Shown here: positions 330 through 55,776 of the stretch, piece by piece
Layout: the number at the start of each line of letters is the position of its first letter
Position numbering within the stretch: the first letter of the stretch is position 1
From: Malachius bipustulatus
Taxonomy: Eukaryota; Arthropoda; Insecta; Coleoptera; Melyridae
Direction: 5' to 3'
DNA: 64,000 nucleotides
NCBI GenBank assembly: GCA_910589415.1
Contig: OU342633.1
Coordinates: 14,856,858-14,920,857, forward strand
Position numbers and translations under genes: made by a program
Notes under the pieces: model-generated
Told to the model about the DNA's origin: nothing
Seen by the model: only the letters and a program-made list of their open reading frames with translations
The model's database searches: none

Positions 330-922
330 TTGTAGTCTTCTCTATTTTCCAATTGAAGTAAGCGAAAAAAAAACTACCCGGAAGAGTCAGGTTTTTATGA
401 TGCTAGTCATATACATAAATACCTAAAACTATTTATTCTAAGTTGATCAGATCATGAGATTTTAATAAGGATTCTTGATTTGTCTCTCAATAATTACGGG
501 ACATTTGCAAGTTAGAGAGATAGCGATAAAAATGCCTTCTGTCTCCCAAATAGAATAAAATGAGCTTTTTATATAGTTCGGGTCACCTTCTCAAAGTCGG
601 TCTTGTCAAGTAAGGGTCTAGCGCGTTGGTGAACGGTTACGCCCTTTTTCCCAGATTTTCCAGAGCGATTTCAAAACCTTTCTACCATTTGGATGAAAAT
701 TACTGGAGGGCATCTAGGCAACCTCTCCAATTGAGGGAAAAACATTTTATTCCCATTAATTTGTTCCTCGACGTAACCTCCAGTACCTACAATTAAGCAT
801 ACACAAACGTCGACAAGAAAATCAGCCGCGTAAACAAAATCGGGCTCAAATGATTCCTTACTATTATGTACCTATTTTATAAAAAAAATTCTTCTAAAAT
901 GCACCTTATTTAAATGAAGGCT
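330..922. other. AT-rich intergenic or intronic sequence, nothing recognised
   Basis: No open frame of interest, RNA gene or clear repeat structure was found. If the Zasp-like exon at 2466-2590 belongs to a gene continuing leftwards, this could be intron. Confidence 0.4.
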
Positions 923-1320
923 GTCCCTTATTTCAGAGCTCACTATGGGTATCTCTCGTAAACGCTAGAGATACAGGGTCGGTTAAAGTAGAGACAATAT
1001 GCCCAATTTTGTAGCCATCTCGAATCCGGCAAGACATGCAAGATATATCTGTGACCCTTCCTGAAATATCCTGGAAAAACTGAAAAAACGAGATTCCTTA
1101 TTTCTTCATAATCTTTTTCATATTATTAGAAATTAATAAATAATTTTTTGTAGGCTTGCCAAAAAGTCGTCAAGAGCCATATCCATATGACATTTCACAA
1201 ATTTCACTAGATTCCTGAGTTTTCATTGTCAATTTTTGTTTTTCTTATGACCGCCATATTATTTTTTTTATTCGTTCGGTGGAAAAAATCATGGAAACCA
1301 AAAATTAATTAAGACTTTTA
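923..1320 (+). repeat. interspersed repeat family A, copy 1
   Basis: The stretch from the GGGTCGGTTAAA segment through the 'atctcgaatcc' and 'gaaatatcctgga' segments matches, with divergence, sequences at about 30005-30545, 56050-56572 (reverse), 58071-58505 and 63050-63660. A related core ('gccgccatatta', 'cgttcgg') is present. The copies carry no coding sequence, and several fold back on themselves. Confidence 0.65.
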
Positions 1321-1621
1321 AGATTCAAAGATATTTTTCCATTGTAGCAGTCTGACTGTAGAGATTTTCTTGAAAATCACTTATAACAGCCTATAAGTAG
1401 ATATTTTTGATATAATAATGTCCTTCGGTGCATGAATATTCCAGCAGTACGCCATATTCTATTTTAAGTAATGCGAATGTTTATATTTAGAGGAAGATAG
1501 TCGTACACCTAGAAACACTTGTGTATCATTTTTCTATTGTTGTGACTCTTTTTGTAAAGTTTTGATTTGACAATTCTTTAAATTTGATGAGAATCGGGTT
1601 ATTATTTCCAAAAATATTGGA

Positions 1622-1730
1622 TTAAAATTTGGTTCGATTCGATGAATACAGCTTTGAGATAAGAGATTCAGGTCGCGCATACTTTCCAGCGATCGAATAT
1701 TGATGTGACGAGCGTTCGGCGTGTTTTCTC
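1622..1730 (-). CDS. candidate downstream exon of the Zasp-like gene (weak)
   Basis: On the minus strand a possible acceptor (...acttgtgcag) precedes a CpG-dense stretch in an otherwise AT-rich area. If the phase-2 end of the exon at 2466-2590 is spliced to 1730, the frame stays open for about 35 codons and then reaches TAA at 1622-1624. It would therefore be a short alternative C-terminal exon. A second frame (72 codons, 1534-1752) is also open across it, so the frame choice is not forced. I do not recognise the peptide. Composition and splice logic are visible; the link to the Zasp-like gene is inference. Confidence 0.22.
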
Positions 1731-1752
1731 CTGCACAAGTCAAAGTTTGCAC

Positions 1753-2459
1753 TTGATAGTCATCAAATTAAAGAAAACCTTTGTCAATGTTAAAAAACAA
1801 CAATTTTCAGTTTGATATTCTCGGTCACGAACTCTACTTCCCTGTTAATTTTAAAGTTCAGATTTTTTTTGCAAAAGAAGAGATCTTTGCAAGTAGCAAA
1901 TTGGAAGAAAATATTTTTCGCTCAATTGGGAGGGGGGGAGGGGTTGCCTAAATGTCCTCTAGTAATATTTATCAATATGGTAGAATTTTTTTTAAATCTA
2001 TATTTATAATTATTTTTATTGAACCACTTATTTGATTATATAATATTTGATGACTTTTTTAATTGGGATTTAGGTTTTAATTTAAACTTGCCACTAAAGA
2101 TTGTTTACAGAACAAATTAGAAAACTTTCGTACAGCATGTGAGGAGTTTTTTAAATCACTGGGGCAAATGTGGGAAAAAAAGGCCGTAGCTGCTAACCAC
2201 AACGCGCTAGACCCCTACTCGACAAGTCGGATTTTGAGAAGGGAACTCGAACTATTGTTTGAAATTTTTTTTTAACACAAGGAATTTTTGTCGCCATCTC
2301 TCTAGCTATATGAGTTCAGTACAAAAATTGGAATATAATAATTGGCTACAACTAAGAAAAACCTTTTTAAAATTTTTAATGTTCCAATTACCTGACTTTC
2401 AAAATACTTAACATCATTCAAAGCTACCCATATACCTATTTAATAATTTTTCATATAGT
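1753..2459. other. AT-rich, probable intron of the Zasp-like gene
   Basis: No coding island or repeat structure is evident apart from T- and G-runs (for example near 1930). It lies immediately 3' of the GTGAGT donor of the minus-strand exon. Confidence 0.35.
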
Positions 2460-2465
2460 ACTCAC

Positions 2466-2590
2466 CCCACTGATCCATTTGACATCGCCTTAGTATCTCG
2501 TTCTAATGCTTCCTGCACATTTTGGGCTGAGTAAAGATTGATAGGAGAATTGTACTGCTTATTAACTAGTCGCATATGTTGAGTGGCCAT
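2466..2590 (-). CDS. coding exon with ZM (Zasp-like) motif, ALP/Enigma-family Z-disc protein
   Basis: Reading the minus strand from ATG at 2590 gives 41 codons plus two bases, then the donor GTGAGT (2465-2460). The peptide contains NKQYNSPINLYSAQNV, followed by QEALERDTKAMSNGSVG. QYNSPxxLYS is the hallmark of the ZM motif of Zasp/ALP/Enigma proteins, which bind alpha-actinin and the Z-disc in muscle. The ATG has a favourable context (AAAAATGGCC) and an in-frame TGA lies 15 nt upstream, so this is the true start if the 5' region is exonic. A possible acceptor (tcattgttacag, ending at 2642) would place a 51-nt 5'UTR on the same exon. No PDZ or LIM exon is visible here; the rest should lie to the left, or an N-terminal PDZ exon further right. 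An isoform starting directly at ZM is suggested. The assignment is firm for the motif and moderate for the exact family member. Confidence 0.75.
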
Positions 2591-2641
2591 TTTTCTTTCG
2601 GTTGTTCAGTCGATAGATCGGAATTTCGTTTCACTATAACT

Positions 2642-3211
2642 CTGTAACAATGATTGGAAAGTATTAAAAACATAAATAAAAATGTCAAATTATAACAACT
2701 AAAAGCTATATCAGACAATAACACATAGATAATATGTGGTATAATTTAAAACTTTTATGCAAAATTAAGAAATCCTCAAAGAAATCGTCAAACAATAACA
2801 GAATCTCATAGGAGGTCTTATAAAAATTTTAACATGGCCTTTAACCGAAAATTAACACGTATTGACATTTTAGAAGGTATTTTTGTCATTTTAATCATTT
2901 TAATCTATAATTTATAATTTTCGTCGGCGTTAAATTTACAAACTTGTTAAAAATTAATTTCCATAAAAGTGATTCCGGGTTATTATATGAACAGAAGTTA
3001 TTATAAATATTTGTCTATAGCAGCTTAAACTTTTTGCTACAGGGTGTTGAGTTTTTGTTTTTTTAAGTAAATTTTTCATTAAATCGCATGGTAGTGTTCA
3101 TATTTTGATGACCATTTCAGTTTCGAAAAGACATTATTTTACGCCTAAGTTCTTATGTATGTTCTTTTTATGTATGTATCTTGTACGTGTGTATTATTTA
3201 AGTATGTTCTT
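2642..3211. other. AT-rich non-coding stretch
   Basis: Upstream of the Zasp-like exon on the minus strand. No TATA/initiator pair, RNA gene or open frame is convincing. Confidence 0.35.
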
Positions 3212-3251
3212 TTACGCAATTGTATGTAATTGTACGCAATTGTACGCAATT
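3212..3251 (+). repeat. short tandem repeat, 10-bp unit TGTACGCAAT
   Basis: About four imperfect copies of TGTACGCAAT occur back to back. They are preceded by related ATGTATGTTCTTTT-like runs from about 3150. Confidence 0.7.
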
Positions 3252-3274
3252 CTGATTAGTCTGACCAGTTCTAT

Positions 3275-3560
3275 ATGAACATGATCTCCTGCGTTTTTAT
3301 CTTACTCTCACAAAAATTTTAGCCCCCTAGATTGAAACTCGCGACCAGAAGCCGTGCCTCAAGGACTGGATTTTTGGAATTTTGAAAAGACATCCTGTAG
3401 AAGTAACGTGATTTTTGGACATTTTTCCAACGAAAATCTAACGCCATTCCAAAGTTTTACAAGAATACAAAATTTCGTTCACTAATCTTGAAAGATAAAG
3501 CTACAGGAGCGTTTCTAAAATCGAAATTTGGCGTTTTTTGAGAAATATACAGGGTAAGTC
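3275..3560 (+). repeat. interspersed repeat family B, copy 1
   Basis: About 285 bp matches 43685-43975 in the same orientation, including the 'caaaatttcgttcactaatc' and 'agctacaggagcg' segments. It contains the 'catcctgtag' and terminal 'tacagggt' motifs typical of repeats here. Non-coding. Confidence 0.75.
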
Positions 3561-3710
3561 ATTTTAGATACAAAAAAATTGTGCAGATAAAAGCTTTTCA
3601 GGACAATGGGGGTCATCTGACTGTACTAATGACTTTGACCTTGTAGACCAATTTAAAGACCATTTGAAATTCAAGATAATTTTTTAAATAGGACATTTAA
3701 ATAATTTTTT

Positions 3711-3785
3711 TTTAATAAATTCGAAAAGTGATGTCGTCCTCAAAAGTGTATTTATTTATAAAAAATTCACTAAAAGTCAAGAAAA
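3711..3785 (+). repeat. interspersed repeat family C, fragment 1
   Basis: The string AGTGATGTCGTCCTCAA followed by AGTGTATTT and a run of A/T also occurs at 24100-24170 and 62105-62165. This is the shortest copy. Confidence 0.65.
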
Positions 3786-3789
3786 CACA

Positions 3790-4250
3790 GAGAAGCAAGA
3801 GTACAGGATTATTGGGGTAAGTGTAAGGGTTCCTTAACATCTCATCCCTTTCGAATGAAACTGTACTCCTGTCATATTCTGGGTTATGATACTGGCAGAA
3901 CTTGATAGTGAAAGAAGAGTGAACACTTTTGACGTCATTCCATTTACATATAACTATGCCAACAATCCATAACTGAAACCTTTTCCGAACTGAACTGACG
4001 TTACTTAGAAGGTTAACCTTCTGGAATTCCAGAAGCAGCGAGAACAGGTGATCGCAAACAATGTTAGATTCGCGATACTTGACGTTCATGAATGTCAGCT
4101 GTCTGTGTAAAAGTAACGTGTTTATCAGTTAGAGACGAACGACGGTAATAAGAGAGAAGACTAGGAAGTGAACATTGGAGTCTAGAGTGCTATAGAGGAG
4201 ATGACAGGAATTCGGTGGAATTAGAGATATTGTGAAGAAAATTAATTGAG
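3790..4250. other. no recognised feature
   Basis: A 125-codon minus-strand frame covers 3712-4089, but it runs into repeat C and has no recognisable domain. I do not call it a gene. Confidence 0.35.
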
Positions 4251-4254
4251 AGTT

Positions 4255-5100
4255 CTAGAAGAGAGTGGACGTACACGAATGTCCTTGGACGTCCAAAGGG
4301 TACAAAAGGCGAACATAGATTTGGCACTGATTTGGACGTGGACGTCCGTCCTGGACATCCAAAGGACCTCCGTTCTGAACATCCAAAGGAAGTCTATTCT
4401 GGACGTCCAATAGACGTTTGTTCTGGACAACAATAATACATGTACCGTGGATGTACAAGAATAACCGTCCAATGGACGTTGATCTTAGTGTCATAGACGT
4501 TCGGTGGACTTTTGTGGGATGTCCATTGGGCGTCGAATTTTGTATTTTCCGTGGACGTTCAGTGCATGATGGACGTCTGGCTGACGATTCATCTTGGATG
4601 TACAATGGATGTACATCAATTGGACGTTCAGTTAAAGCCCATAGAAGTCTGAACGTTCCCTGGACTTTTCTTAGATGTCCACTGCACGTCATATTTTGGG
4701 AGTCCGTTGGACTTTTTTTGTAGGACCTCCAGTGGACGTACATTAGTAGACGTCCTCTAGACATTGATATTCCGCCTATAGACCTCTTCACGTCCGATGG
4801 AGATTAGTTGGAATAAGCCCATTGGACTTTACATTTTGGATGTCAAATGTACTTTCAAAGCTGGACATTCAGTGGACGAAGCATCCTGGATGTACAATAG
4901 CAAGACATTCTGTGGACGTTCATCTCAGGTCCGCAAACGTCTGGACTTCGCAAACTATGGGCTTTCGTGTTATGTATGTCCAATATGGATGTGGCATGTT
5001 GGTCATCCGCTGAACGTACATAACAGGATGTCCATCGGACGCCCGTGGAAGGTAAGTGGACGTTTTTTGGATTTTTGTTGGACGTCAAGTGGACGTCCAT
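4255..5100. repeat. degenerate GGACGTCC-type array
   Basis: Dozens of variants of GGACGT, ACGTCC, GGATGTAC and GGACATCC recur every roughly 15-40 bp in both orientations. The core TGGACGTCCA is itself palindromic. Open frames on both strands (for example 4255-4791 minus, 4418-4723 plus, 4797-5177 plus) translate to repetitive W/T/S/D/V/H-rich peptides. They are by-products of the array, not genes. GC and CpG are visibly higher than in flanking DNA. No fixed period was established by eye. Confidence 0.8.
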
Positions 5101-5784
5101 GGTTCTGGGACAAAAAAGGGGAAGCCGTAATTTTCTTGACATTTTGTGGGATATACCTCGAAAACTGCAAAACCTAAACTGTGGTAAAGACACTCGGCTT
5201 TTGTACACAAAAAAATCTAAAACCATAAAATAAAGCGAGCTGCTCACGACGCGGTACTTGGCAAAGTTATTTAGCAAGTATTTGGCGAGTATTTGTGAAA
5301 GGAAAAGTCAAACCATAAAACCGTATACGTTACTTCCTCGTAACAGAGCGGGTATAGTATGGTGCGTTCTTGAAAACACTTTGCATGTAACAACTTTTGA
5401 CTTGGGACAGTTCACCGACAACGAACGGGAAGTACAAGAAGTGGCATGGCAAGTAAATCCGAGCTGTTCCGAGTTGCACGCCGTGTCGTAATAATTCTCA
5501 CTACTCGGCACTTGCCGCGAAATAACAAGTACTTGCCAAGTAACGCGTCTTTAGTAGCAGGTTTAGTGCTTATTTGCACCACAAAACATGTTGCTACTTT
5601 AATGTTTTTCATCATAAATTGCTGTTTTTCTTTAAAACAGTCAATATTAGCCCTAAGTTGCAAAAATCTGCTGGAAAGGGAAAAAGTTATATCATTTTAA
5701 GAGCGGACAGTTGATTTGTTGAATTCACCCTGTAAAATCAGGCTTTGAACCATAAATATCAGGGTTTTTTTAGGTTTCAAAAAT
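5101..5784. other. non-coding, short internal repeats around GGCAAGTACTTG-like motifs
   Basis: Between about 5250 and 5560 there are repeated variants of 'ggcaagtacttg' and 'cttggcaaag' in both orientations, suggesting a decayed foldback. CACCCTGTAAAA occurs near 5727. The overlapping short frames have no recognisable domain. Confidence 0.35.
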
Positions 5785-6834
5785 TTTGGTGTTCAGGTAC
5801 TAATCCAAAGATGTTGCGATATTAACCATGATGTCTACCTTTGTTCGATCAACTTTGAGAAAGCTTTCGACAAAGTACGCCATGACAAAATGCTACAAAT
5901 TCTAAAAACGACAGGGATAGATAGCAAAGATATTCGAGTGGTTGCCAATTTATACTGGCACCAGACAGCTGCAGTACGAATGGAGCACCAGCTATTGGAT
6001 GAAATTAGTATCAAACGAGGAGTACCACAAGGATGCATTTTGTCGCCACTGCTTTTCAACCTCTACTCAGAGGAAATATTCAATGAGGCTCTTACTGATT
6101 CCACTGAAGGAATCAATATTAATGGGATCAATATAAATAATAGCAGATATGCCGATGATACACTAATTGTCACTAATAATGAAGAAGATCTACAGAACCT
6201 AGCAACATTAACGATCAATGGAATCTAACTGTAGAGATCAAAACACGAATAGAGAAACCCCGAGCCGTGTTTATGAAAATGAAAAAAGTGTTAACCAGTC
6301 ACGACCTAAGATTGAAATTAAGAATGAAAATGGTACGCTGTTATGTCTTTCCAGTTCGTTTGTACGGCATGGAAGCATGGACACTCACCGAAACAATGCT
6401 TAACCGACATGGAATCATTCGAGATGTGGGATGTGGGTGTATCGACGATTACTAAAGATCTGTTAGGTGGACAGAATTAGTAACAAGATAGTTCTAGCTC
6501 GCATGGCAAAAGATCTAGAAATAGTTAAAGCAATCAAACAATGCAAACTAGAGTATTTTGGTCATGTTATGAGACACCCGGAGAAATATGAGATCTTACA
6601 TATTATTATATATAGAAGGAAAAATCATCGGCAAACGTGGTCCAGGGAGAAGGAGAACGTCGTGGTTGAAGAATTTGAGACAGTGGTACGGGAAGTCTAC
6701 AGTTCAACTATTCCGAGCAGCTGTCAACAAAACAATAATTGTCAAAATGGTAGCCAACATGATAACCATGCAACGATCGTTGAACGTGAACGGTCAAGGT
6801 ACCAGAAGAAGAATAAAAACTTCCAAGTAAAATT
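5785..6834 (+). pseudogene. decayed non-LTR retrotransposon reverse transcriptase (RTE-like)
   Basis: The frame covering about 5790-6225 encodes RT core motifs. INFEKAFDKV corresponds to block 3/A, RGVPQGCILSPLLFNLY to the fingers/palm loop, and SRYADDTLIV holds the YADD catalytic aspartates. It then breaks into at least three other frames: 6267-6455 (FPVRLYGMEAWTL), 6467-6600 (RMAKDLEIVKAIKQCKLEYF, FGHVMRHPEKYE) and 6588-6830 (GKRGPGRRRTSWLKNLRQWY). These are the usual thumb and C-terminal motifs of insect endonuclease/RT LINEs. Several frameshifts and internal losses leave no intact ORF. The endonuclease domain is absent. It is a dead, 5'-truncated copy; assignment to LINE is secure, to the RTE-like clade moderate. 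Confidence 0.9.
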
Positions 6835-32229: not shown

Positions 32230-33432
32230 TTATTCGAGCTGACCTGGCTGGTAATATTGCGGCCGCTGTAAAGCTGGTGCAGGGAGGGCTCGTCGTGTTG
32301 TCTGGAGCATCATCATAGGTCGCCCCAGGCGGTCTCTTGAATTCGGAGTTCTGCTTAGATGTTGCCTGTTCGGCTGACTGTATCTGGGGAAACTTTGTTG
32401 GTGCGAGGATGTGCCTGGGTGGTGCTTATCCGTCCATGGCAAAGCCCTCCAGCGTTGATTAGCGTTCTGGCTGCTTCGTGCACGTCTCATATGTAGCAAA
32501 TTTGGTGCAATTGCCCCCGTGTTGACTGATTGTCTTTGGTCCGATTTACTTTCGCGCTCAGCGTGTATAAAATCTTGTGCGCGTAAAAACATCATGACCG
32601 CCTCCAAGGTGTGCTGCTCCTTTGTGGCCCATAACGAGCGTATGGTTGGGGTAAAATGGTCCATGATTTCCTCTATTAGTTGGCCTATTGGGATGGGGGT
32701 TGTAAGTAACTTAGCTTGCCCATAGATTTTCAAAAAATAGTCGGTCATTGGAATACCAGGAATCCACTTTCCGGTACTGATTTGTATTCGCAGAGATCTC
32801 TGGTGTCGGGTTGTCCAATATTCCTGCAAGAAACGTTGACGAAACTGGTCGTAGCCTACGGAGTTTTCTTCAACTAGCCTCCACCAATCACGGGCCGAGC
32901 CTTCCATACAGTCTCCGACGAAGTCCATTAATTCTGCTTCATTAATTTTCATACGCCTCTGAAACGCCTCCAGCTCCTGCAGGAATATGACTGGATTAGT
33001 TTCGGATGGTTGAAACGTAGGAGGTGTCGGCGCATTTCGTAGGAACATGATTGTCTGGTTTGACTGTGCTCTTGCAAGCATCGTGTTCGCGTCCCATTGC
33101 TGCGTATTCTCAGTCGCCACTTCCGGGTTTCGGGCAATCTCCTGGACAGCTGCCGATGGAACCACTTATGCAGACGAAACGGCCTCAGCGCGTCTACCGC
33201 TTTCACAACACTCGCGCACTCCTCGCGTGGGTGTTCTAGTTTGTCGCGTTTCCGACCGAACCGCACTGGTTTCGCATGTTGACCCCGCAACCGTTGTTGG
33301 GATTGGGGCGCGGTTTGAATTTTCTTTGTCCTCCACCAACTCAGCTATCTGGCGCCTGAGGTCCGCAATAGTGCGGAGGGCTTCCTGTAGAGGGACGTCG
33401 TCGTGACCTATCCTAATGTAACAACCAGACAC
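32230..33432 (-). pseudogene. retrotransposon Gag-like ORF with one internal stop
   Basis: Two minus-strand frames in the same phase (33432-33166 and 33165-32230) are separated by a single TAA at about 33166-33168. The upstream part has a coiled-coil-like EALRTIADLRRQIAELVEDK. The downstream part has a capsid-like domain: FLQELEAFQRRMKINEAE, then DCMEGSARDWWRLVEE, then FLQEYWTTRHQRSLRI. This is typical of Ty3/Gypsy-type (retrotrans_gag) proteins. A basic, Q/P-rich tail follows, with no CCHC zinc knuckle. No protease, RT or integrase follows, and a poly(A) tract lies just downstream. No in-frame ATG was found at the 5' end. It is either a decayed gag-only copy or a Gag-derived host gene with a recent lesion; the stop favours pseudogene. 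Confidence 0.8.
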
Positions 33433-35084: not shown

Positions 35085-36485
35085 GTAAGTGATGCTGTGA
35101 CCGCGCGCTCTCCGCCTTCTATCTCGAAAACGGTTCACAGTATGAAAATTTTTTTCAAGCAAAATTTGTAGAGAATTTCGTATTCTACAATATTGATAAT
35201 AAATACAAATAGCAAAAAAACCTATAGGAAATGAGATATTTACAAAAAAAGCGCAAAAAACCGATTTTTGTGACCTTTGACTTTGAAATTTAATAGTTGC
35301 GTACTTCCGAGATTCCTACCTAATTTAAGCTTAAATGACTGGACTATAATTCTCACCGAAGAGAAAACAACGACGCACGTAAACAAACGGAAAGTAACAT
35401 AATCTTAAGGGGTGGGGTATTCACAAGTCTCTTAAAATGCGTGTAGTTTTACGAAACCATGACAGTGCGTAGTTTTATACAAAATTTAACGATTCTAATT
35501 GGTTATCTGAAGTATTCTGAGTTGCGAAGTGATGATTTTCTAAAACTGCACCCACTCTAAAGAGACTCGCGTGAATACCCCTATGTTTATTAATAACATT
35601 GGACATATTTGTGTATGCGCCCCCAGAGAAAAAGACGGACCGCTGTCAAAGTCAGCTGTTCTGAAATGATCAATTAATATACTTATGCCCGTATTCACAA
35701 ACGATAATTTCCAAAATAATTACGTAATCAATTATCCCCATCTCATTCTATTGCGAAAAAACTGCATATCTCCATCTCACTCATTTAAATAATTACGTAA
35801 TTATTTAGGAAATTATCGTTTGTGAATACGGGCATTAGTGTTACCTCGTGTTACCTCATTTTAAAACAAAGAACAATATTAAAAGTGACGTTGCAGACGT
35901 TACTGTTACCTATAAACGTGACATGCACACTCTCAAAATTGACAATTAACATAATTTTTGTTTAGATGTTTAAAACACCTTTGAAAGAGGTTTGACATGC
36001 TTCTCACGCTTTTGAAGTTGACAGGAACAGACACGTCATTTTTTCTGATCAGTTTATCTCACACGATTCGAAAATATTCAAATCGACTACTAATTTTTTT
36101 AAAGTAAGTAATTTTTGAGCCGAAAACAAACAAACAAAAATTCGAAATGCAGCTTAACCAAATGAAGTCTCTGCAACACATGTGAAACACCTCAGATTGA
36201 GCGTCTGTAACTTTAAAGTCTTCCTGGTCTTTTCTATGCTCTGTCAAGTAGATTTCGTAGTGATTGTAACAGACTGACGAGTCCGTGAATAAGATGAAAC
36301 GTTAACGTCTATTCCTACGGGCAAAATACTTTTGAATGTTTCATAAGCTCAAACCAGAGATAGTTCTTCTTTTTCAATGTAAAACTTTTGGTTTTTTATC
36401 TGATCGATCTCAAACCTCACACCGAACTCTTCAAACGAAATCTCCCATCAAGCTTTGCTTTTTCATGTTTATTTATGTCTTTTAG
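35085..36485 (+). other. 5'UTR intron of the lipase-NACHT-ankyrin gene
   Basis: 1,401 nt from GTAAGT to tcttttag. It contains a Harbinger-type MITE (35686-35834), a 62-codon minus-strand frame of no apparent meaning (36059-36247), and otherwise AT-rich DNA. The proposal depends on the promoter and exon 1 above. Confidence 0.55.
35686..35834. mobile_element. 149-bp MITE with TTA target duplication
   Basis: Perfect or near-perfect terminal inverted repeats begin TGCCCGTATTCACAAACGAT. TTA flanks both sides (35683-35685, 35835-35837). The inner arms pair as 'aataattacgtaat'/'attacgtaattattt'. Type of target site suggests PIF/Harbinger mobilisation. Confidence 0.9.
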
Positions 36486-36494
36486 TGTCTCACG

Positions 36495-39400
36495 ATGAGC
36501 TCACCACCACCATCACCACCACCGGCACCCTTCTCCAGTGTACTCGGAGTCGACAAATGCATCCTCAAAAATCTCAACAAATGTAAAAATCAATTAATGG
36601 AAAAACTAAAAAAGAGAACCATCACCGATAAAGACGTACTCAACCTTGAACCACACCCAAGCGACTACCGCCTAGTATATTTCGCCGTCGAAGTCTACGA
36701 AGACAACTGCACCATCCCTGACGACTGGGATTGGAAATTACTAGTAAGAGTCGCCAACACCGAACTTGGAAACGGGTACGTAGGAGCGGCGTTCTTCAAC
36801 CCCATCCAGCAGCAAATAATCATCGCGCATCGCGGGACGAACGGCATTAACGACTACAATTCCTGGTGGAACAATTTGAATGGCGTCGTGAAGTGCTCCA
36901 CCTCCGCCCAAATCAACTCCGCTCTAACTTTCGCTGACTTCATTCGAGACGTAATTGTTAAGCTTCGTTCGGAGGTGAAATGGCGTTACCAGCTGTCCTT
37001 CACCGGTCACTCGTTGGGAGGTTTTCTGGCGCAGATAACCACCTTTGGGGTGAAATACTTGCAACGATGCCATGACTACATGTTCCGGAAATCAACGGAT
37101 GCGGGAATACACGGTCACTGCGTCACCTTCGATAATCCGGGCTGTGCGGAAATGTTGGACCTAATAACCGATCATTGCGATCTGAGATATCTCAAAACGA
37201 TTTTCCCATGCACCCTCGACATGACCGCTTACCTCTCGGCCCCTAACAAAGTGAACATGTGCAACCGTCACGTCGGAGTTGTGCTGAGACTGAAGTTGTC
37301 CTTCGAGGAGATCGATATCCGGTCCGTGCACTTTATACATTACCTTGTAACGACCCACGATAAGAACACGATCAAATCCGTCTTCGACCCTGATGGAGTA
37401 ACAATGTCAGTTGACGTCGATCAAATTTTTGACTGGCCCGTTACGTACGGCTATTCCGAAGAGGAATCCAAATTTTTCAAGTGCAGTCTTCAGAAAAATA
37501 ATTTCTACCCAGATCTTAACGAAACTGTCGTTCCCATCGGAAAAGGTCGTTTCAATAAGGTTCGTTACTACTCTAGGAAACACTCGGTTAATTCTTGTAA
37601 CGTCTCGTTGTTCTCAGAGGACGAACTGTTCTTTTTGGAGCATTGGCTGAAGATTGTTCAGTTACCCGTTACGATTAACGAGACGTTCTCGCCATTAGAT
37701 CGACCGTTTAATGTCTTGTTGTCTAAGTTCGAACGAACCGGAAGTTCTTTAAAATTTAACTGCGAGGCGTCAATGAAGGAAACGATTACAAGATGTAAAC
37801 AGATCGTCCGGTGGTATCCTGAAGAGATCATAACATGTTTACACTCGTTTCAATCGAAATTGCACGATGCTATTATGAAGGTCGCCATTGATTCTTATAA
37901 CGAATCGTTTGATAATTGTAACGTTAATTTTAACGATTCGATTAAACTGGAGAATTTCCTTGAAGCAAAAAAGAATGTTTTATTAATAAAACCGAGTGTT
38001 AAAAACTATAAAATCGAGATGTTACGATTATTTAACATTTTCAAACAAATCCGTTCTAAGCAGAGCAATAATATTGATAAATACACCGGGAATGATAATT
38101 TTATCTTCGTTAATCAACCATATCTGCTCTCGTTATTTAAATATACTGAGGTCGATTTATTTATAAATTCACAATTAAATTTATTATTCGTTGATTTACT
38201 TAACGAAACCGTTAAAGGCGACGTCTTGAATCTGATAAAGAGATTCGCGGAAGGCGTTCGTAAAGTTGTAATAGTAAACGGCTCAAATATTAATTTATCT
38301 CAAACGAGCAGTAGAGAAATCGCGTCACCCGAATTCAAATTTATCGACCTAACGGTGGCTAGTCAAGATTGGGTGTTAAATAAAAAAATAATAAAATTCC
38401 GGAACGAGACTTACTCCTTAGCTACTTTCTTCAACACGGCCAATGATGACCGTACAAAAAACTCATCAATCGTCAACGATTATCAATTCTTAGATCTGTT
38501 ACTAAACGATCGTTACATCGAGCTGAAAAACAACTCGCTCAATCTCTCGAAATTGGACAATTTCTACATTCAAGCAGACAATGACCAAAGTTACTCGTAT
38601 GAGGATTTCGTTAAGTTAATCGAGAACTGTGAATGTGATCTAAACGAATCAAAAATTCTAATAACGCACGTTTGCGATCGTCTAAATTTCGAAATCCGCT
38701 GCGATCAGTTACAAACGGCCGACCTTAACGAAGCGTCGCAATATTTTAAGGAACGCTGCAATGAAAACAGTTCCAGGAAGTTTTACTGGTTCCACTACGA
38801 TCAAAAGGTCTCGTTACAACAAATCTATAATCCCGAATTATACATCCCCCGATCATTCAACGAAATGGTTCTCGACGAAACGAAAGTAACGGATTCGATT
38901 AAAGAACAGTTATTGCGACAAGAAAATGAAAGAGCTGATAACCGCGTCACTGTTGAATTAACTAAAACTGGCAAACGACCCGTGAAATGCAAATTCAGGG
39001 TAAATCGAAAAAGCGATAACGTTACCTACGTCTGGGATAGAAAGGATAACAATAACGAGATTGACGACATCGAGATTGACGATATTCGTGATTTCTTAAC
39101 GATGTCCCATGACGGTTTGTTAGCGGAACAAGAATTAGTTGATCGGAGGGTTTTGTTAATAACGGGAGATCCTGGAATCGGCAAATCGACCACCGTAAGG
39201 AACCTGATCTCGAAGATCGAACGCAGTTGGGTTTTCAAACTGACTTATAACGACTGCGCGACGATCGTTACAAGACTGAACAGTAAGTTTGAGATCGATA
39301 GGATCTCCGAGCAGCTGCTCAAGATTAAAACGAACAATGAATTCGATTTCCTTAAATATCATCTCGCCGGAAAAACGCCGATCAAAGTTGTGTTCTTGTT

Positions 39401-41351
39401 TGACGAGATATTCGACTCGTCCTACGATCAAAAATACGAGACACCGATAATCGAATTCTTGCAGTATCTGCGCGACGAAACTGAATCGTTGGTTATAGTA
39501 ACATCTCGCAAGACTAAACGAACGATGCTCGAGAACGCTCTGGAAACCTTCTCGATACAATTTGAACAGTTGAATCGGGAAGATGTCGAAGGGTACTTAA
39601 CAAATTACTGGAGCGACTTGTTTCATCTTGACTTAAAACTGAAACCGTTAACGTTAAACGGTCTTAACGACTACATCAAGACGCTTCTCGATAAAGCGAC
39701 GAAGGTCTTCCATCAGAACATTCTCAGCTTCGTCGGAATTCCGCTTCAAATGAAACTGTTGGCAGAAGTGGCGGCGCCGGGTAACCCGTCTACGTCCACG
39801 AAAAGTCTCGATCGGATCTCGCTGGAGTTTCCCAACAGTTTAACGGGGATCTACGAAGCTTTCATTGCAAAAAAGCTCTCGATTGTTTGCAACAAAGAGG
39901 GTCTCAGGGAGTCGTCCTCGTCCAAGAAAGTCTACCTCAAATCGATCGATAAACAACTACGAGCTTTCTCCGCTGCGAAGTACGGTTTCGATAATGACAA
40001 TTTTGAAGAACTGGAAACCCTGCAAGTCTTGCAAGAGACGGGATTAATCCAGGGCTCCGAATTCATCCATCAGACGATCCAGGAGTTTTATTTCGCCAGT
40101 CAAATTTTTGCTTGGTTGAAGGAATGTAACGGGAGACACGGGGATAGGAGACCTGGACTAATAGACTTTCTCCTGGAGAAAATCTTCAACTCTTGGAAGT
40201 TTAGTATCGTCCAGATGTTTCTGGAGACGTACGTTTCGCAAATAACTCCCGAAGATGCTCCATTTTATTCTCGCAAAATTGTGGAGGAGTTGATGAACGA
40301 CTCATCGTCTTCATTTATTGATAGAATATCAAGCACAGTTTTAATCTGCAGTTTAATCCTAAGGAACTGTCAAGGTATCGCGATATTTATCCTGGAATCA
40401 TTCAAGAAATATCATGAGCACGAGACCGAGGCTTTTTTACAGTTATTAACTGGAGAAAATTTTAATGGAAAAACTGCTCTCTTTGTCGCTTGTGAGTGTA
40501 ATCAAACACGTGTCATCGATTGGTTCGTCCGATTTCTTAAAACGCAATTAACGGAAACGCAGAATCGAATTATAATCGCCAGTTTCTGTCGACTGCCTGG
40601 CACGAAGTCCTTGGACGCTCTTGATAACTTCATCGCTCGGATCCCAGCTGCGTGGGTAAGAAATGTTAAGGAAATCGTCGATTTAGTAAAAAAAGGTAAT
40701 GTTGTGCTTGGTAATTTTATTTTCGCGGCGAAAAATGGTTCTTTGGAAATTGTTCGAAACTGCTTAACGAACGTAAGCGACACACTTAAGTCCCATTTAC
40801 TTGGCACCTATTCATTTTCTCTTGAATCGTCCAACGCTCTTCACTTAGCCGTTATACACGATCACCCAGAAATCGTTCGTCTCCTAATCAAACACGGATC
40901 GAACGTCAATGAAGTGAACTCCGACCAGGTGACCCCGATCGCTCTTGCTTGTGAATCTGGAAACGTCGAGATTCTGCGTTTCTTAATCGATCACGGGGGT
41001 GATTATAAAACAAAGGACAATCGAGGAGTCACCCCGTTTCATCGATCAGCAACGGAAGGTCACGGGGATGTCGTGAAATATTTCCTGGATGAATTAAAAT
41101 ACGAAGAAGTTAACCAGAAGGATTCGGATAGCCACACCGCGCTACACAGTGCTACTATGAACAATCATTTGGCGGTCGTGGAAATTTTATTAAAGCACGA
41201 CGGGATTGATGTGAACGTAGAAAATAATTACGGCTGGAGACCTCTGGATTTTGCCGTTAAAACGCAAAATTTTGAATTAATCAAGAGGATCGTGAAAGCG
41301 GGACAAATATCGATTACGAGGACTATTATGATTACGATGACGATTCCTTAA
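36495..41351 (+). CDS. lipase-like / NACHT NTPase / ankyrin protein (NLR-like)
   Basis: 1618 codons, no intron. A proline-rich start (residues 2-13) precedes a class-3-lipase-like domain (about 50-310) with oxyanion-type HRGT (112-115), nucleophile elbow GHSLGG (171-176, Ser173), candidate acid D213 and His279 or His282. Residues 330-880 form a long region I do not recognise. A STAND/NACHT NTPase follows: Walker A GDPGIGKST (891-899), Walker B VVFLFDE (965-971), sensor-like VTSR (to 1005) and the NACHT C-terminal motif FIHQTIQEFYFA (from 1190). Ankyrin repeats run from about 1444 to 1603. In the family logic the repeats sense, the NACHT oligomerises on NTP, and the lipase-like domain would hydrolyse lipid as effector; this function is inferred. 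There is no signal peptide or membrane segment, so it is probably cytosolic. The start is supported by the splice acceptor nine bases upstream. Codons are more GC- and CpG-rich than flanks. The last 15 residues are out of frame with the true C-terminus. Confidence 0.92.
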   Translation: MSSPPPSPPPAPFSSVLGVDKCILKNLNKCKNQLMEKLKKRTITDKDVLNLEPHPSDYRLVYFAVEVYEDNCTIPDDWDWKLLVRVANTELGNGYVGAAFFNPIQQQIIIAHRGTNGINDYNSWWNNLNGVVKCSTSAQINSALTFADFIRDVIVKLRSEVKWRYQLSFTGHSLGGFLAQITTFGVKYLQRCHDYMFRKSTDAGIHGHCVTFDNPGCAEMLDLITDHCDLRYLKTIFPCTLDMTAYLSAPNKVNMCNRHVGVVLRLKLSFEEIDIRSVHFIHYLVTTHDKNTIKSVFDPDGVTMSVDVDQIFDWPVTYGYSEEESKFFKCSLQKNNFYPDLNETVVPIGKGRFNKVRYYSRKHSVNSCNVSLFSEDELFFLEHWLKIVQLPVTINETFSPLDRPFNVLLSKFERTGSSLKFNCEASMKETITRCKQIVRWYPEEIITCLHSFQSKLHDAIMKVAIDSYNESFDNCNVNFNDSIKLENFLEAKKNVLLIKPSVKNYKIEMLRLFNIFKQIRSKQSNNIDKYTGNDNFIFVNQPYLLSLFKYTEVDLFINSQLNLLFVDLLNETVKGDVLNLIKRFAEGVRKVVIVNGSNINLSQTSSREIASPEFKFIDLTVASQDWVLNKKIIKFRNETYSLATFFNTANDDRTKNSSIVNDYQFLDLLLNDRYIELKNNSLNLSKLDNFYIQADNDQSYSYEDFVKLIENCECDLNESKILITHVCDRLNFEIRCDQLQTADLNEASQYFKERCNENSSRKFYWFHYDQKVSLQQIYNPELYIPRSFNEMVLDETKVTDSIKEQLLRQENERADNRVTVELTKTGKRPVKCKFRVNRKSDNVTYVWDRKDNNNEIDDIEIDDIRDFLTMSHDGLLAEQELVDRRVLLITGDPGIGKSTTVRNLISKIERSWVFKLTYNDCATIVTRLNSKFEIDRISEQLLKIKTNNEFDFLKYHLAGKTPIKVVFLFDEIFDSSYDQKYETPIIEFLQYLRDETESLVIVTSRKTKRTMLENALETFSIQFEQLNREDVEGYLTNYWSDLFHLDLKLKPLTLNGLNDYIKTLLDKATKVFHQNILSFVGIPLQMKLLAEVAAPGNPSTSTKSLDRISLEFPNSLTGIYEAFIAKKLSIVCNKEGLRESSSSKKVYLKSIDKQLRAFSAAKYGFDNDNFEELETLQVLQETGLIQGSEFIHQTIQEFYFASQIFAWLKECNGRHGDRRPGLIDFLLEKIFNSWKFSIVQMFLETYVSQITPEDAPFYSRKIVEELMNDSSSSFIDRISSTVLICSLILRNCQGIAIFILESFKKYHEHETEAFLQLLTGENFNGKTALFVACECNQTRVIDWFVRFLKTQLTETQNRIIIASFCRLPGTKSLDALDNFIARIPAAWVRNVKEIVDLVKKGNVVLGNFIFAAKNGSLEIVRNCLTNVSDTLKSHLLGTYSFSLESSNALHLAVIHDHPEIVRLLIKHGSNVNEVNSDQVTPIALACESGNVEILRFLIDHGGDYKTKDNRGVTPFHRSATEGHGDVVKYFLDELKYEEVNQKDSDSHTALHSATMNNHLAVVEILLKHDGIDVNVENNYGWRPLDFAVKTQNFELIKRIVKAGQISITRTIMITMTIP

Positions 41352-41689
41352 TCGAGCCAGGATCGAGCCAGAATGTCAGTAATGAGAGCTCGAACTCTAT
41401 GAACGAGATTACTCACGCTTGTGATACCGGAAACCTTGAGCTGCTCCGTCGCATAATCGATCAGGGGGGTGATTATAAAAAAGGGGACAATCGAGGAGTC
41501 ACCCCGTTTCATCGAGCAGCAACCAGAGGTCACGTAGATATCGTGAAATATTTCCTGTACGAATTAAAATACGAAGAAGTAAACTGTAAGGATTCGCACG
41601 GCGACACCGCGCTACACCGTGCGGCCGGGAACAATCATATGGTGGTCGTGGACCTCTTGTTGAAACACGACGGGATTGACGCGAACGCG
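40941..41689 (+). repeat. internal duplication of the ankyrin-coding block, offset 470 nt
   Basis: Copy 1 (about 40941-41219) and copy 2 (about 41415-41689) share long identical strings such as 'gacaatcgaggagtcacccc' (41017 and 41487) and GATTATAAAA (41001 and 41471). All aligned points are 470 nt apart. 470 is one short of a multiple of three, matching the frame change between the copies. Confidence 0.92.
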
Positions 41690-41953
41690 ACAAATTGTCT
41701 CGGGATCAAACCTTTCCAAATCGTTATCCATTGGGAAGGTTTCGGTATATACGTTGTTAAGTTTCAGGAAGCGGGCGCAATGATTCAAACGAACGATTAC
41801 GAAATGTTACCGATTAAAATGGCCAGAAAGTACACACCGAAGCACATTGTCAAATTGTTGAAGAAGCTAAAAGGGAAGCCACCCGAATCGGTACGAAATA
41901 ATTCTAATAACAATACTGTTCTTGCTGCTGTATACTCTAATCACAAAAAATAA
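41303..41953 (+). CDS. displaced C-terminal ankyrin segment of the lipase-NACHT gene
   Basis: From ACA at 41303, in the frame one base back from the main ORF, the reading stays open for 216 codons to TAA at 41951-41953. It encodes an acidic linker (DYEDYYDYDDDSLIEPGSS), a second copy of the ankyrin block (NRGVTPFHRAATRGH, then LLLKHDGIDAN) and a basic tail (KLLKKLKGKPPE). The ankyrin pattern around the junction resumes after the codon pair for A-G, so the main frame appears to have lost one base near 41301-41303. An internal ATG at 41399 is not needed. Without the lesion the protein would be about 1.8 thousand residues. Sequencing error, a null allele, or a tolerated truncation are all possible. 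Confidence 0.85.
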   Translation, partial: TNIDYEDYYDYDDDSLIEPGSSQNVSNESSNSMNEITHACDTGNLELLRRIIDQGGDYKKGDNRGVTPFHRAATRGHVDIVKYFLYELKYEEVNCKDSHGDTALHRAAGNNHMVVVDLLLKHDGIDANATNCLGIKPFQIVIHWEGFGIYVVKFQEAGAMIQTNDYEMLPIKMARKYTPKHIVKLLKKLKGKPPESVRNNSNNNTVLAAVYSNHKK

Positions 41954-42539: not shown

Positions 42540-42794
42540 CTAAACTACTTCTTTATTAAAGGGTACTGTAAATTTGCTAGGATTTGTTTTAAAGATAATG
42601 AAATTATAATCAAATAAAGAAGTCGATATAAAACTTAATTTCTTAAAACTCTCCGTCCTTTTAATTGTCCTCTCCACATGAATTCTCGCCCAGGCCATAC
42701 ATTCTGTTCGGTGGATTTGTTCTGGCGTAAATTGTGGCGAAGCTCCAAATCTCACGGTTCCATCTGTTGTAGCACCCCAACTGGCAAACAACAT
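42540..42794 (-). pseudogene. C-terminal scrap of a DDE-superfamily transposase
   Basis: The minus-strand frame encodes FGASPQFTPEQIHRTECMAW, then ARIHVERTIKRTESFKKLSF. QFT/QL-x-EQ-x-x-RT-x-x-IA-x-ARIHVER-x-I-x-R is the conserved helix containing the last catalytic glutamate of DDE_4-type endonucleases. Only this C-terminal portion is present; the aspartates are absent. The following residues (ISTSLFDYNFIIF) are compatible with the family. It lies 0.6 kb 3' of the NACHT gene. Confidence 0.65.
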
Positions 42795-55147: not shown

Positions 55148-55776
55148 TATAATAATAGTAAAAATAAATAAAAATAAAATAGCACGGTGGGTTCGGCTTT
55201 CGCCATAGGATGCAACCCCAGGCAGCTAAAACGCATGCCAACAACTGAGTGCAGTGCCTCCCGATGTGCGTAAAGGTAGGATAGGCCTACTTCCAAAGTT
55301 TAACAAAAAGATGAATGACATATCGTAAAACGATACGTCATTCATTGATTTCATGCTGTGAGTCAGGGGTGGAAAAATGAAACAATTTCCACATAAGCAT
55401 GAAATCAATGAATGACGTATCGTTTTACGATATGTCGTTCATCTTTTTGTTAAACTTTGGAAGTAGGCCTATCCTACCTTTACGCACATCGGGAGGCACT
55501 GCACTCAGTTGTTGGCATGCGTTTTAGCTGCCTGGGGTTGCATCCTATGGCGAAAGCCGAACCCACCGTGCTATTTTATTTTTATTTATTTTTATCATTT
55601 TGCTCACTATTAAGTGACTAAGATTGTGCTGTGTGTTAGCAAGATACATTATACTGAAGAGTCCCAATTAGGACGAAACACGTGTCTACAATTTCCACCC
55701 CTGACTCACAGCATGAAATCAATGAATGACGTATCGTTTTACGATATGTCGTTCATCTTTTTGTTATAATAATAGT
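55148..55776 (+). mobile_element. Penelope-like terminal structure (inverted pseudo-LTR) with hammerhead ribozyme
   Basis: Inverted arms of about 205 bp (55160-55365 and 55388-55595) are nearly identical and share 'cctggggttgcatcctatgg' and its complement. Beyond the right arm a further unit carries a hammerhead ribozyme and then repeats the arm-inner sequence directly ('gactcacagcatgaaatcaa' to 'cgttcatctttttgtt'). The whole is bounded by a 12-bp direct repeat TATAATAATAGT (55148-55159 and 55765-55776), a likely target duplication. Mixed inverted and direct terminal units plus a hammerhead are the known signature of Penelope-like elements. No RT or GIY-YIG sequence is present, so this is a truncated or non-autonomous insertion. 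Confidence 0.65.
55645..55695 (+). ncRNA. hammerhead ribozyme (type I-like, short stem III)
   Basis: Core CUGAAGA at 55654-55660 fits CUGANGA. Stem II GUCC/GGAC (55661-55664, 55671-55674) has loop CAAUUA. GAAA follows at 55675-55678. Stem III is the minimal palindrome ACAC/GUGU (55678-55685) and C at 55686 is the expected cleavage base. Stem I pairs UACAAU (55687-55692) with AUUAUA (55648-55653) with one C-A mismatch. Such self-complementary stem III is typical of animal PLE-associated hammerheads that may act as dimers. Activity is inferred. Confidence 0.72.

Follow-up and report, generated by a model that had tools for sequence, protein, structure and literature searches.

A Putative NLR-Like Lipase-NACHT-Ankyrin Gene Family in the Beetle Malachius bipustulatus

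We analysed a stretch of 64,000 nucleotides (the window) from the beetle Malachius bipustulatus, positions 14,856,858 to 14,920,857 of contig OU342633.1 in assembly GCA_910589415.1 (C4:14856858-14920857 in our search of the beetle's own genome). Its plus strand holds at 36495-41351 an open reading frame (ORF) of 1618 codons that runs from ATG to stop and encodes 1618 amino acids, in which a lipase, a middle region, a NACHT switch and ankyrin repeats follow one another. This ORF probably represents one member of an insect gene family, expanded in this lineage, that encodes NLR-like receptors with a built-in phospholipase. At least ten uninterrupted copies of the effector-NACHT-ankyrin layout, in which effector and switch are constrained and the sensor evolves faster, make the claimed absence of NLRs from insects directly testable. 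The initial annotation repeated that claim. It is indeed in print, the available part of one paper stating that "Arthropods apparently lack NLRs" (PMC4986451), but it no longer holds without qualification, arthropod homologues of the NACHT-ankyrin protein of phage WO having been reported in 2016 in the part of that study at hand (PMC5062602). Among the matches listed in our literature search, whose scope leaves out preprints and most subscription papers, no title or abstract opening describes a lipase-NACHT-ankyrin family in insects.

A Multi-Copy Family on Insect Chromosomes

The window lies on an insect chromosome. The odorant-receptor family of insects, PF02949 (7tm_6), is matched 129 times in the assembly (544,256,285 bases, 52 contigs) and never in 14 control genomes; one of the matches, at C4:15218702, shares the window's 56-Mb contig at a distance of about 0.3 Mb. 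Together with the placement of the window in this long contig, these matches bear out the insect origin first assumed. The relatives found in symbionts (see below) could be read as a sign that the assembly is contaminated with DNA from bacteria or another source. Such contamination is practically negligible as an explanation: the copies that were retrieved sit within contigs of 40-60 Mb, and the window flanks are non-coding and carry transposon fragments. Own-genome placement, contig context and the odorant-receptor matches led us to reject it. NACHT alone is no mark of an insect, since 11 of the 14 control genomes have a match to it, three of them above the cut-off.

At least 30 matches to the family are present in the beetle genome. 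Besides the window, at least 15 extend over 1,200 or more of the 1618 residues with 61-80% identity, on C3, C4, C6, C7, C14 and C16; 12 of these 15 long matches, including L023, have no internal stop. Some copies are clustered; three of them, for example, share a 50-kb stretch at C16:39.565-39.615 Mb. Among 18 loci (L013-L030), ten carry one uninterrupted frame of 1620-2007 codons, namely L014, L016, L017, L019-L022, L024, L025 and L028. The window copy is interrupted by its frame break, a single stop falls inside the match in L015 and L018, and truncation or breakage affects L026, L027 and L030; L023 and L029 were left out of this classification. The Pfam NACHT model scores above its cut-off in at least 17 places, 15 of which lie by position in family matches; L014 is among the copies that it fails to detect. 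Both the family and the NACHT counts are lower bounds, because only the best candidates were scored.

Two NACHT places lie outside the lipase family, at C16:38238422 and C2:36158600. The former (G000:C16:38238422-38238850, in L032), above the Pfam cut-off, has an open frame of 215 codons. The region of the latter, L031 (G000:C2:36154500-36164400), holds a second NACHT-ankyrin gene on the minus strand (531-6491), a single open frame of 1986 codons with a long ankyrin array and, by eye, the motif FLDGFDE. Its NACHT scored 27.5 bits in one scan and 22.9, under the cut-off, in another. The N-terminus differs from the lipase and is weakly similar to Mrr_cat_2 restriction endonucleases (E 0.04, under the cut-off). 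As far as sequence goes, this gene suggests exchangeable effectors.

Domain Architecture

Order-1 shuffling of the window, in 30 trials, yielded no ORF longer than 206 codons. The features of the gene are collected in Table 1. All four motifs of the initial annotation were located in the ORF, GHSLGG starting at residue 171, the P-loop GDPGIGKS at 891, the Walker B motif FLFDE at 967 and the NACHT-associated FIHQT at 1190. Pfam also finds each of the three proposed domains in this one protein: Ank_2 with E 2.4e-47, nSTAND3 with 37.9 bits (cut-off 27.2), and NACHT (28.2 vs. 26.7) and Lipase_3 (22.2 vs. 22.0), the last two barely above their cut-offs with the window sequence alone. PADLOC matches are confined to the ankyrin repeats and the P-loop region. 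When a profile of 13 rows was compared with solved structures, NLRP3 (E 0.0082) and class-3 lipases (E 0.054) came out best, all of the matches being weak.

Table 1. Features of the lipase-NACHT-ankyrin gene in the window (aa, amino acid positions).
Feature	Position	Strand	Basis
Pyrimidine-rich tract ending in AG, directly 5' of ATG	36472..36494	+	by eye
Main ORF: lipase, middle, NACHT/winged-helix domain, ankyrin	36495..41351	+	ORF list, Pfam, motif positions
Class-3 lipase/phospholipase-A1-like domain (aa ~50-320)	36642..37454	+	Pfam Lipase_3, residue counts, fold of homologue P0056
Nucleophile S173 in GHSLGG	37005-37022	+	residue counts
Conserved H288	37356-37358	+	residue counts
Middle alpha/beta region (aa ~360-680), family-conserved	37572..38534	+	alignments, model
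Linker (aa ~680-870), YIPRSF motif	38535..39104	+	low model confidence, median dN/dS 0.27
NACHT/nSTAND3 NTPase (aa 885-1041)	39147..39617	+	Pfam, motifs, fold prediction
P-loop	39165-39191	+	motif
Walker B FLFDE	39393-39407	+	motif
Helical and winged-helix part (aa ~1042-1245), boundaries approximate	39618..40229	+	ORF translation, profile, fold
FIHQTIQEFYFA in helical/winged-helix part	40062-40097	+	sequence
Fast-evolving stretch, winged helix to ankyrin array (aa ~1246-1429)	40230..40781	+	median dN/dS 0.62, aa 1245-1430
Ankyrin repeats, first frame (aa ~1430-1605)	40782..41309	+	Pfam
Second frame, 225 codons, ankyrin continuation	41276..41953	+	ORF list, Pfam

The lipase part has the nucleophile and the catalytic histidine of class-3 lipases. 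S173, within the GXSXG motif, is present in 68 of 68 family rows and in 12 of 12 other lipases, and H288 in 64 of 68 and 12 of 12. A triad of S173, an Asp and H279 or H282 had been proposed; its serine stands, and its histidine has to be replaced by H288, position 279 being His in 36 of the 68 rows and position 282 Leu in 53. Candidate catalytic acids are D213 (D or E in 66/68) and D242 (68/68). In the 14 aligned insect copies that hold the lipase, S173 and H288 are both kept without exception, as are D213, D242, N251 and H259. The lipase fold anticipated earlier is present in prediction: the class-3 alpha/beta-hydrolase fold is seen on the better model of the homologue P0056. The enzymes of the family are putative lipases.

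The switch has an intact Walker A motif. K897 of the P-loop GDPGIGKST occurs in 68 of 68 family rows and in all 15 aligned copies, and G894, G896, K897, S898 and D970 are identical in 15 of 15 insect copies. The Walker B residue D970 is kept in 65 of the 68 rows; positions 973-974 read F-D in the window protein and D-E in most relatives, with D974 in 15 of 15 copies. Structure prediction gives the fold of the NACHT clade, a nucleotide-binding domain followed by helical and winged-helix parts, so the NACHT fold of the first description is of the NLR type in the predicted window protein. By analogy with known switches, the family would oligomerise in a nucleotide-driven manner.

Between lipase and NACHT, the model contains an ordered alpha/beta part at residues ~360-630, with block means of 60-87, tailing off to 680. 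The linker (residues 678-877) is modelled with low confidence, yet it evolves slowly, and its YIPRSF motif reads YIQRSF in the Cardinium protein. The initial annotation called these roughly 550 residues unrecognised and possibly a new domain. A homologue search with residues 300-880 alone gave no match; the idea that the region is special to this protein was nevertheless rejected, as it is conserved across the family. In a Foldseek search, about 700-950 model columns aligned to several tandem AAA proteins, and one row (ClpA) spans residues 461-1112. These alignments hint at an AAA-like middle region; profile comparison gives no support to it, the profile-profile match of the middle region to NACHT being not significant (probability 3.5%, E 0.012; other runs 0.022, 0.038 and five of 0.12-0.54). 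The list from a second fold search was taken up by rows for the lipase and the ankyrin repeats. A decayed second P-loop domain is one possible reading of the middle region.

The initial annotation treated 36495-41953 as a single ORF. This had to be corrected, since the frame stops at 41351 and a second frame (41276-41953), offset from it by one base, continues the ankyrin array. On either side of the break lies a 300-nt block of the array, 41371-41670 duplicating 40901-41200 at 78% identity, with a ratio of nonsynonymous to synonymous change (dN/dS) of 0.60 between the two. In copies such as L014, L017, L019 and L021 a single frame continues beyond the point of the break. Uncut family copies have one to three ankyrin blocks, and the cut L026 has none. 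No leucine-rich repeat (LRR) family was among the 23 families of the Pfam scan (E 0.1) of the window protein, which has ankyrin repeats instead. The tract directly before the ATG is a possible 3' splice site as judged from its sequence, and a similar one is seen by eye upstream of several other copies.

Selection between Copies

Nei-Gojobori medians were obtained for 14 copies with a usable frame, i.e., 91 pairs (78 where the C-terminal part is present). L027 was left out of the pairs, its lipase being in another frame, and L023, L029 and L030 were left out of all alignments. Median dN/dS is 0.32 in the lipase, 0.33 in the middle region, 0.27 in the linker, 0.28 in NACHT and 0.31 in the helical-winged-helix part, as compared to 0.62 for residues 1245-1430 and 0.60 for the ankyrin part; the highest single-pair values reach 0.89 for the core and 1.46 for the C-terminal part. 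The effector and the switch are under purifying selection, and the C-terminal part changes faster.

In designed ankyrin proteins, the offsets -4, -3, -1, +7 and +8 from the T of TPLH are randomised; +20 and +27 are further randomised or free positions, which we did not count. We compared five repeats in 13 rows. L026 and L027 were left out of both per-offset analyses, and L025 and L028 also out of the first offset table. The nonsynonymous proportion (pN) at the five contact offsets is 0.41 vs. 0.16 elsewhere, and 7 of 201,376 five-offset sets reach as much; elevated values also occur outside the chosen set, e.g., at +4 and +6. Variability is highest at the contact surface, with a ratio below 1 that falls short of demonstrating positive selection.

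Several observations weigh against a receptor with a built-in phospholipase. The set of contact offsets was picked post hoc, after the per-offset table. Synonymous change at these offsets is high as well (0.44 vs. 0.31; 3,326 of 201,376 sets reach it), and the ratio there, 0.93 vs. 0.53, stays below 1 (9,074 sets reach it), so that relaxed constraint, gene conversion or misalignment may explain part of the excess. The median dN/dS of the C-terminal part is likewise below 1. The structure model of the window protein is weak overall (mean pLDDT 63.8, pTM 0.42), and several lipase stretches from residue 201 on have a confidence below 50 in it. The usual catalytic-Asp position of class-3 lipases seems, in an alignment by eye, to fall on N251, an invariant Asn. 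Walker B has an unusual second acidic pair, its sequence being FDEIFD vs. LDGFDE in most relatives. Finally, the window copy itself is interrupted by the frame break.

Relatives and Origin

A search with residues 20-320 found 76 proteins of 956-2,814 residues, of which 58 have NACHT and 51 both NACHT and ankyrin in a precomputed Pfam list. Two of them carry an organism name, and both are from symbionts. P0022 (NMK33_05020) of Candidatus Cardinium sp. is a lipase-middle-NACHT protein aligned over window residues 11-1203 (298 bits), whereas P0004, from a plasmid of Candidatus Symbiodolus clandestinus, has the order ankyrin-lipase-middle and lacks NACHT. P0016, the sister of P0022 in the trees, aligns over residues 12-1605, and P0068 over 38-1603. 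The Pfam NACHT scores of P0022 (22.1) and P0016 (18.7) are under the cut-off of 26.7; the P-loop GMGKST is present. A related lipase, P0077, is joined to an OTU protease domain (43.8 bits), and P0068 has an OTU-like stretch by eye, with no Pfam match.

A scan of 84,980 prokaryotic species genomes gave nine loci, all of them matching in the lipase part alone; relatives lacking the exact motif (TGHSLGGW or the IAHRG stretch) are missed, because the scan requires it. The best two, L001 and L002, are lipase-switch-tetratricopeptide repeat (TPR) proteins of an Amoebophilaceae metagenome-assembled genome. The NACHT part of the window protein has no match in 50,697 phage records (E 0.01), nor do the lipase and P0022; neither the NACHT part nor P0022 has a match in the plasmid search. 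In viral contigs the single window protein found no relative, and the profile gave three weak lipase matches.

Trees were built on 31, 30 and 26 chosen rows, L026 and L027 being left out of the insect-copy tree. The window falls inside a lipase-NACHT clade (98/97), with twelve other lipase proteins (P0001-P0003, P0071-P0079) outside it; L001 and L002 were not included. Thirteen insect copies group together as a single clade (100/100), which a long branch sets opposite the rows from symbionts and metagenomes. The position of the insect clade is unsure, because the long branch of the window (later that of the insect clade) meets the long branch of P0068.

Cardinium is described as a bacterium that lives within the cells of arthropods and nematodes and is passed on through the mother (PMC12342168), and Symbiodolus is described in the accessible part of PMC11322605 as vertically transmitted, widespread in insects and equipped with several secretion systems. 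Transfer of ankyrin genes from symbionts to ants appears in the portion of PMC13320244 that we had. The family may have passed between symbionts and insects, and the Cardinium and Symbiodolus relatives point to immune-type machinery exchanged between insects and their intracellular bacteria. The main rival to a receptor role is a symbiont-derived gene with another role: a symbiont effector family would have entered the insect genome and been kept for reproductive conflict, as a toxin-antidote, for control of symbiont number or for lipid metabolism. It fits with the only organism-named relatives being from symbionts, the Cardinium P0022 and the Symbiodolus plasmid P0004, and with L001 and L002, which demonstrate that lipase-switch-repeat layouts exist in such bacteria. 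We regard it as doubtful, since many copies with a constrained core and a varied sensor resemble a receptor set more closely than a lone co-opted effector.

The genes could also be vertically inherited animal NACHT-ankyrin genes, with symbionts as the recipients, which would be compatible with a receptor role. In the part of the WO study available, parsimony favoured arthropod-to-phage transfer for a TPR gene, the reverse being plausible, and the WO NACHT was nested among more diverse sequences from arthropods (PMC5062602). The long branches that divide insect from symbiont rows agree with such inheritance. Nevertheless, the distant lipase relatives that can be named are bacterial, in databases that cover animal proteins poorly, and we consider this origin rather unlikely.

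Proposed Mechanism

If the family is a set of NLR-like receptors, the ankyrin array and the stretch that precedes it would together bind a foreign or modified ligand in the cytosol. Binding would open the winged-helix/NACHT switch, which would then exchange nucleotide and oligomerise. The clustering might gather and release the N-terminal class-3 (phospholipase-A1-like) enzymes, and these would cut membrane lipids, thereby sending a signal or killing the cell. The steps from ligand to membrane damage are modelled on fungal and animal systems; ligand binding, pathogen sensing and a defence role are what we infer from such a layout. A broader and more tentative idea, in which we have less than even confidence, is that of a lineage with a modular NLR system, where NACHT-ankyrin receptors bear exchangeable enzymatic effectors (an expanded phospholipase type and, in at least one gene, L031, another N-terminus that may be nuclease-like), ankyrin contact surfaces diversify between copies, and genes are traded with intracellular symbionts, which put the same proteins to use on their own hosts.

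Flanks of the Gene

The flanks contain remnants of mobile elements. A reverse transcriptase fragment at 5749-6228 (+; RVT_1, 78.7 bits) is the sole one above the Pfam cut-off; a Ty3/gypsy gag-like fragment (32230-33165, -) and a DDE_Tnp_4 transposase-like fragment (42540-42794, -; 20.1 bits) are under it. About 650 bases before the gene, at 35681-35839, is an inverted repeat of 54 nt, 93% complementary with 51 nt between its arms, resembling a small non-autonomous transposon. A Type I hammerhead ribozyme is found at 55648-55692 (+; 49.2 bits vs. a gathering score of 34). Rfam gave nothing else in the window, and there is no tRNA in its 64 kb.

That the gene is merely the cargo of a mobile element, which spreads it, and has no role in the cell is improbable. 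Dispersed copies with long uninterrupted frames on six contigs, and the adjoining DDE_Tnp_4-like fragment and inverted repeat, would be expected of such a gene. Yet the block common to the copies starts at most ~430 bases 5' of the frame (612 in L026) and ends at about the coding end, Pfam detects neither a transposase nor a reverse transcriptase within the frame, constraint varies by domain, and the local clusters fit tandem duplication.

Comparison with Known Systems

Cardinium P0022 has the same lipase-middle-NACHT order as the window protein across the whole core, though its record ends shortly past FIHQTIEEYFATQ, and P0016 shares the whole core plus ankyrin repeats; both are ~25% identical to it. 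The Amoebophilaceae proteins L001 and L002 combine a switch and repeats with a related lipase, whose best segment is 31% and 25% identical, respectively, with TPR in place of ankyrin and a switch that is NB-ARC-like by eye. The prophage WO protein has NACHT and then ankyrin in a symbiont phage, with NACHT homologues in arthropods, and the word lipase is absent from the text at hand (PMC5062602, in part); the comparison is by description, not by sequence.

Animal NLRs (NOD2, NLRC4, NLRPs) have, by prediction, the NACHT-helical-winged-helix fold in common with the window protein, which differs in having ankyrin for LRR, an enzyme for CARD/PYD and a variant Walker B. Under the strict animal definition, with its C-terminal LRR, the window protein is therefore not an NLR. 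Fungal NLRs with a sesB-like or patatin lipase, NACHT and ankyrin repeats, as described in the available part of PMC4986451, share with it a lipase effector, a NACHT switch and a repeat sensor, although sesB and patatin are lipase families other than that of the window protein, patatin being absent from its Pfam matches.
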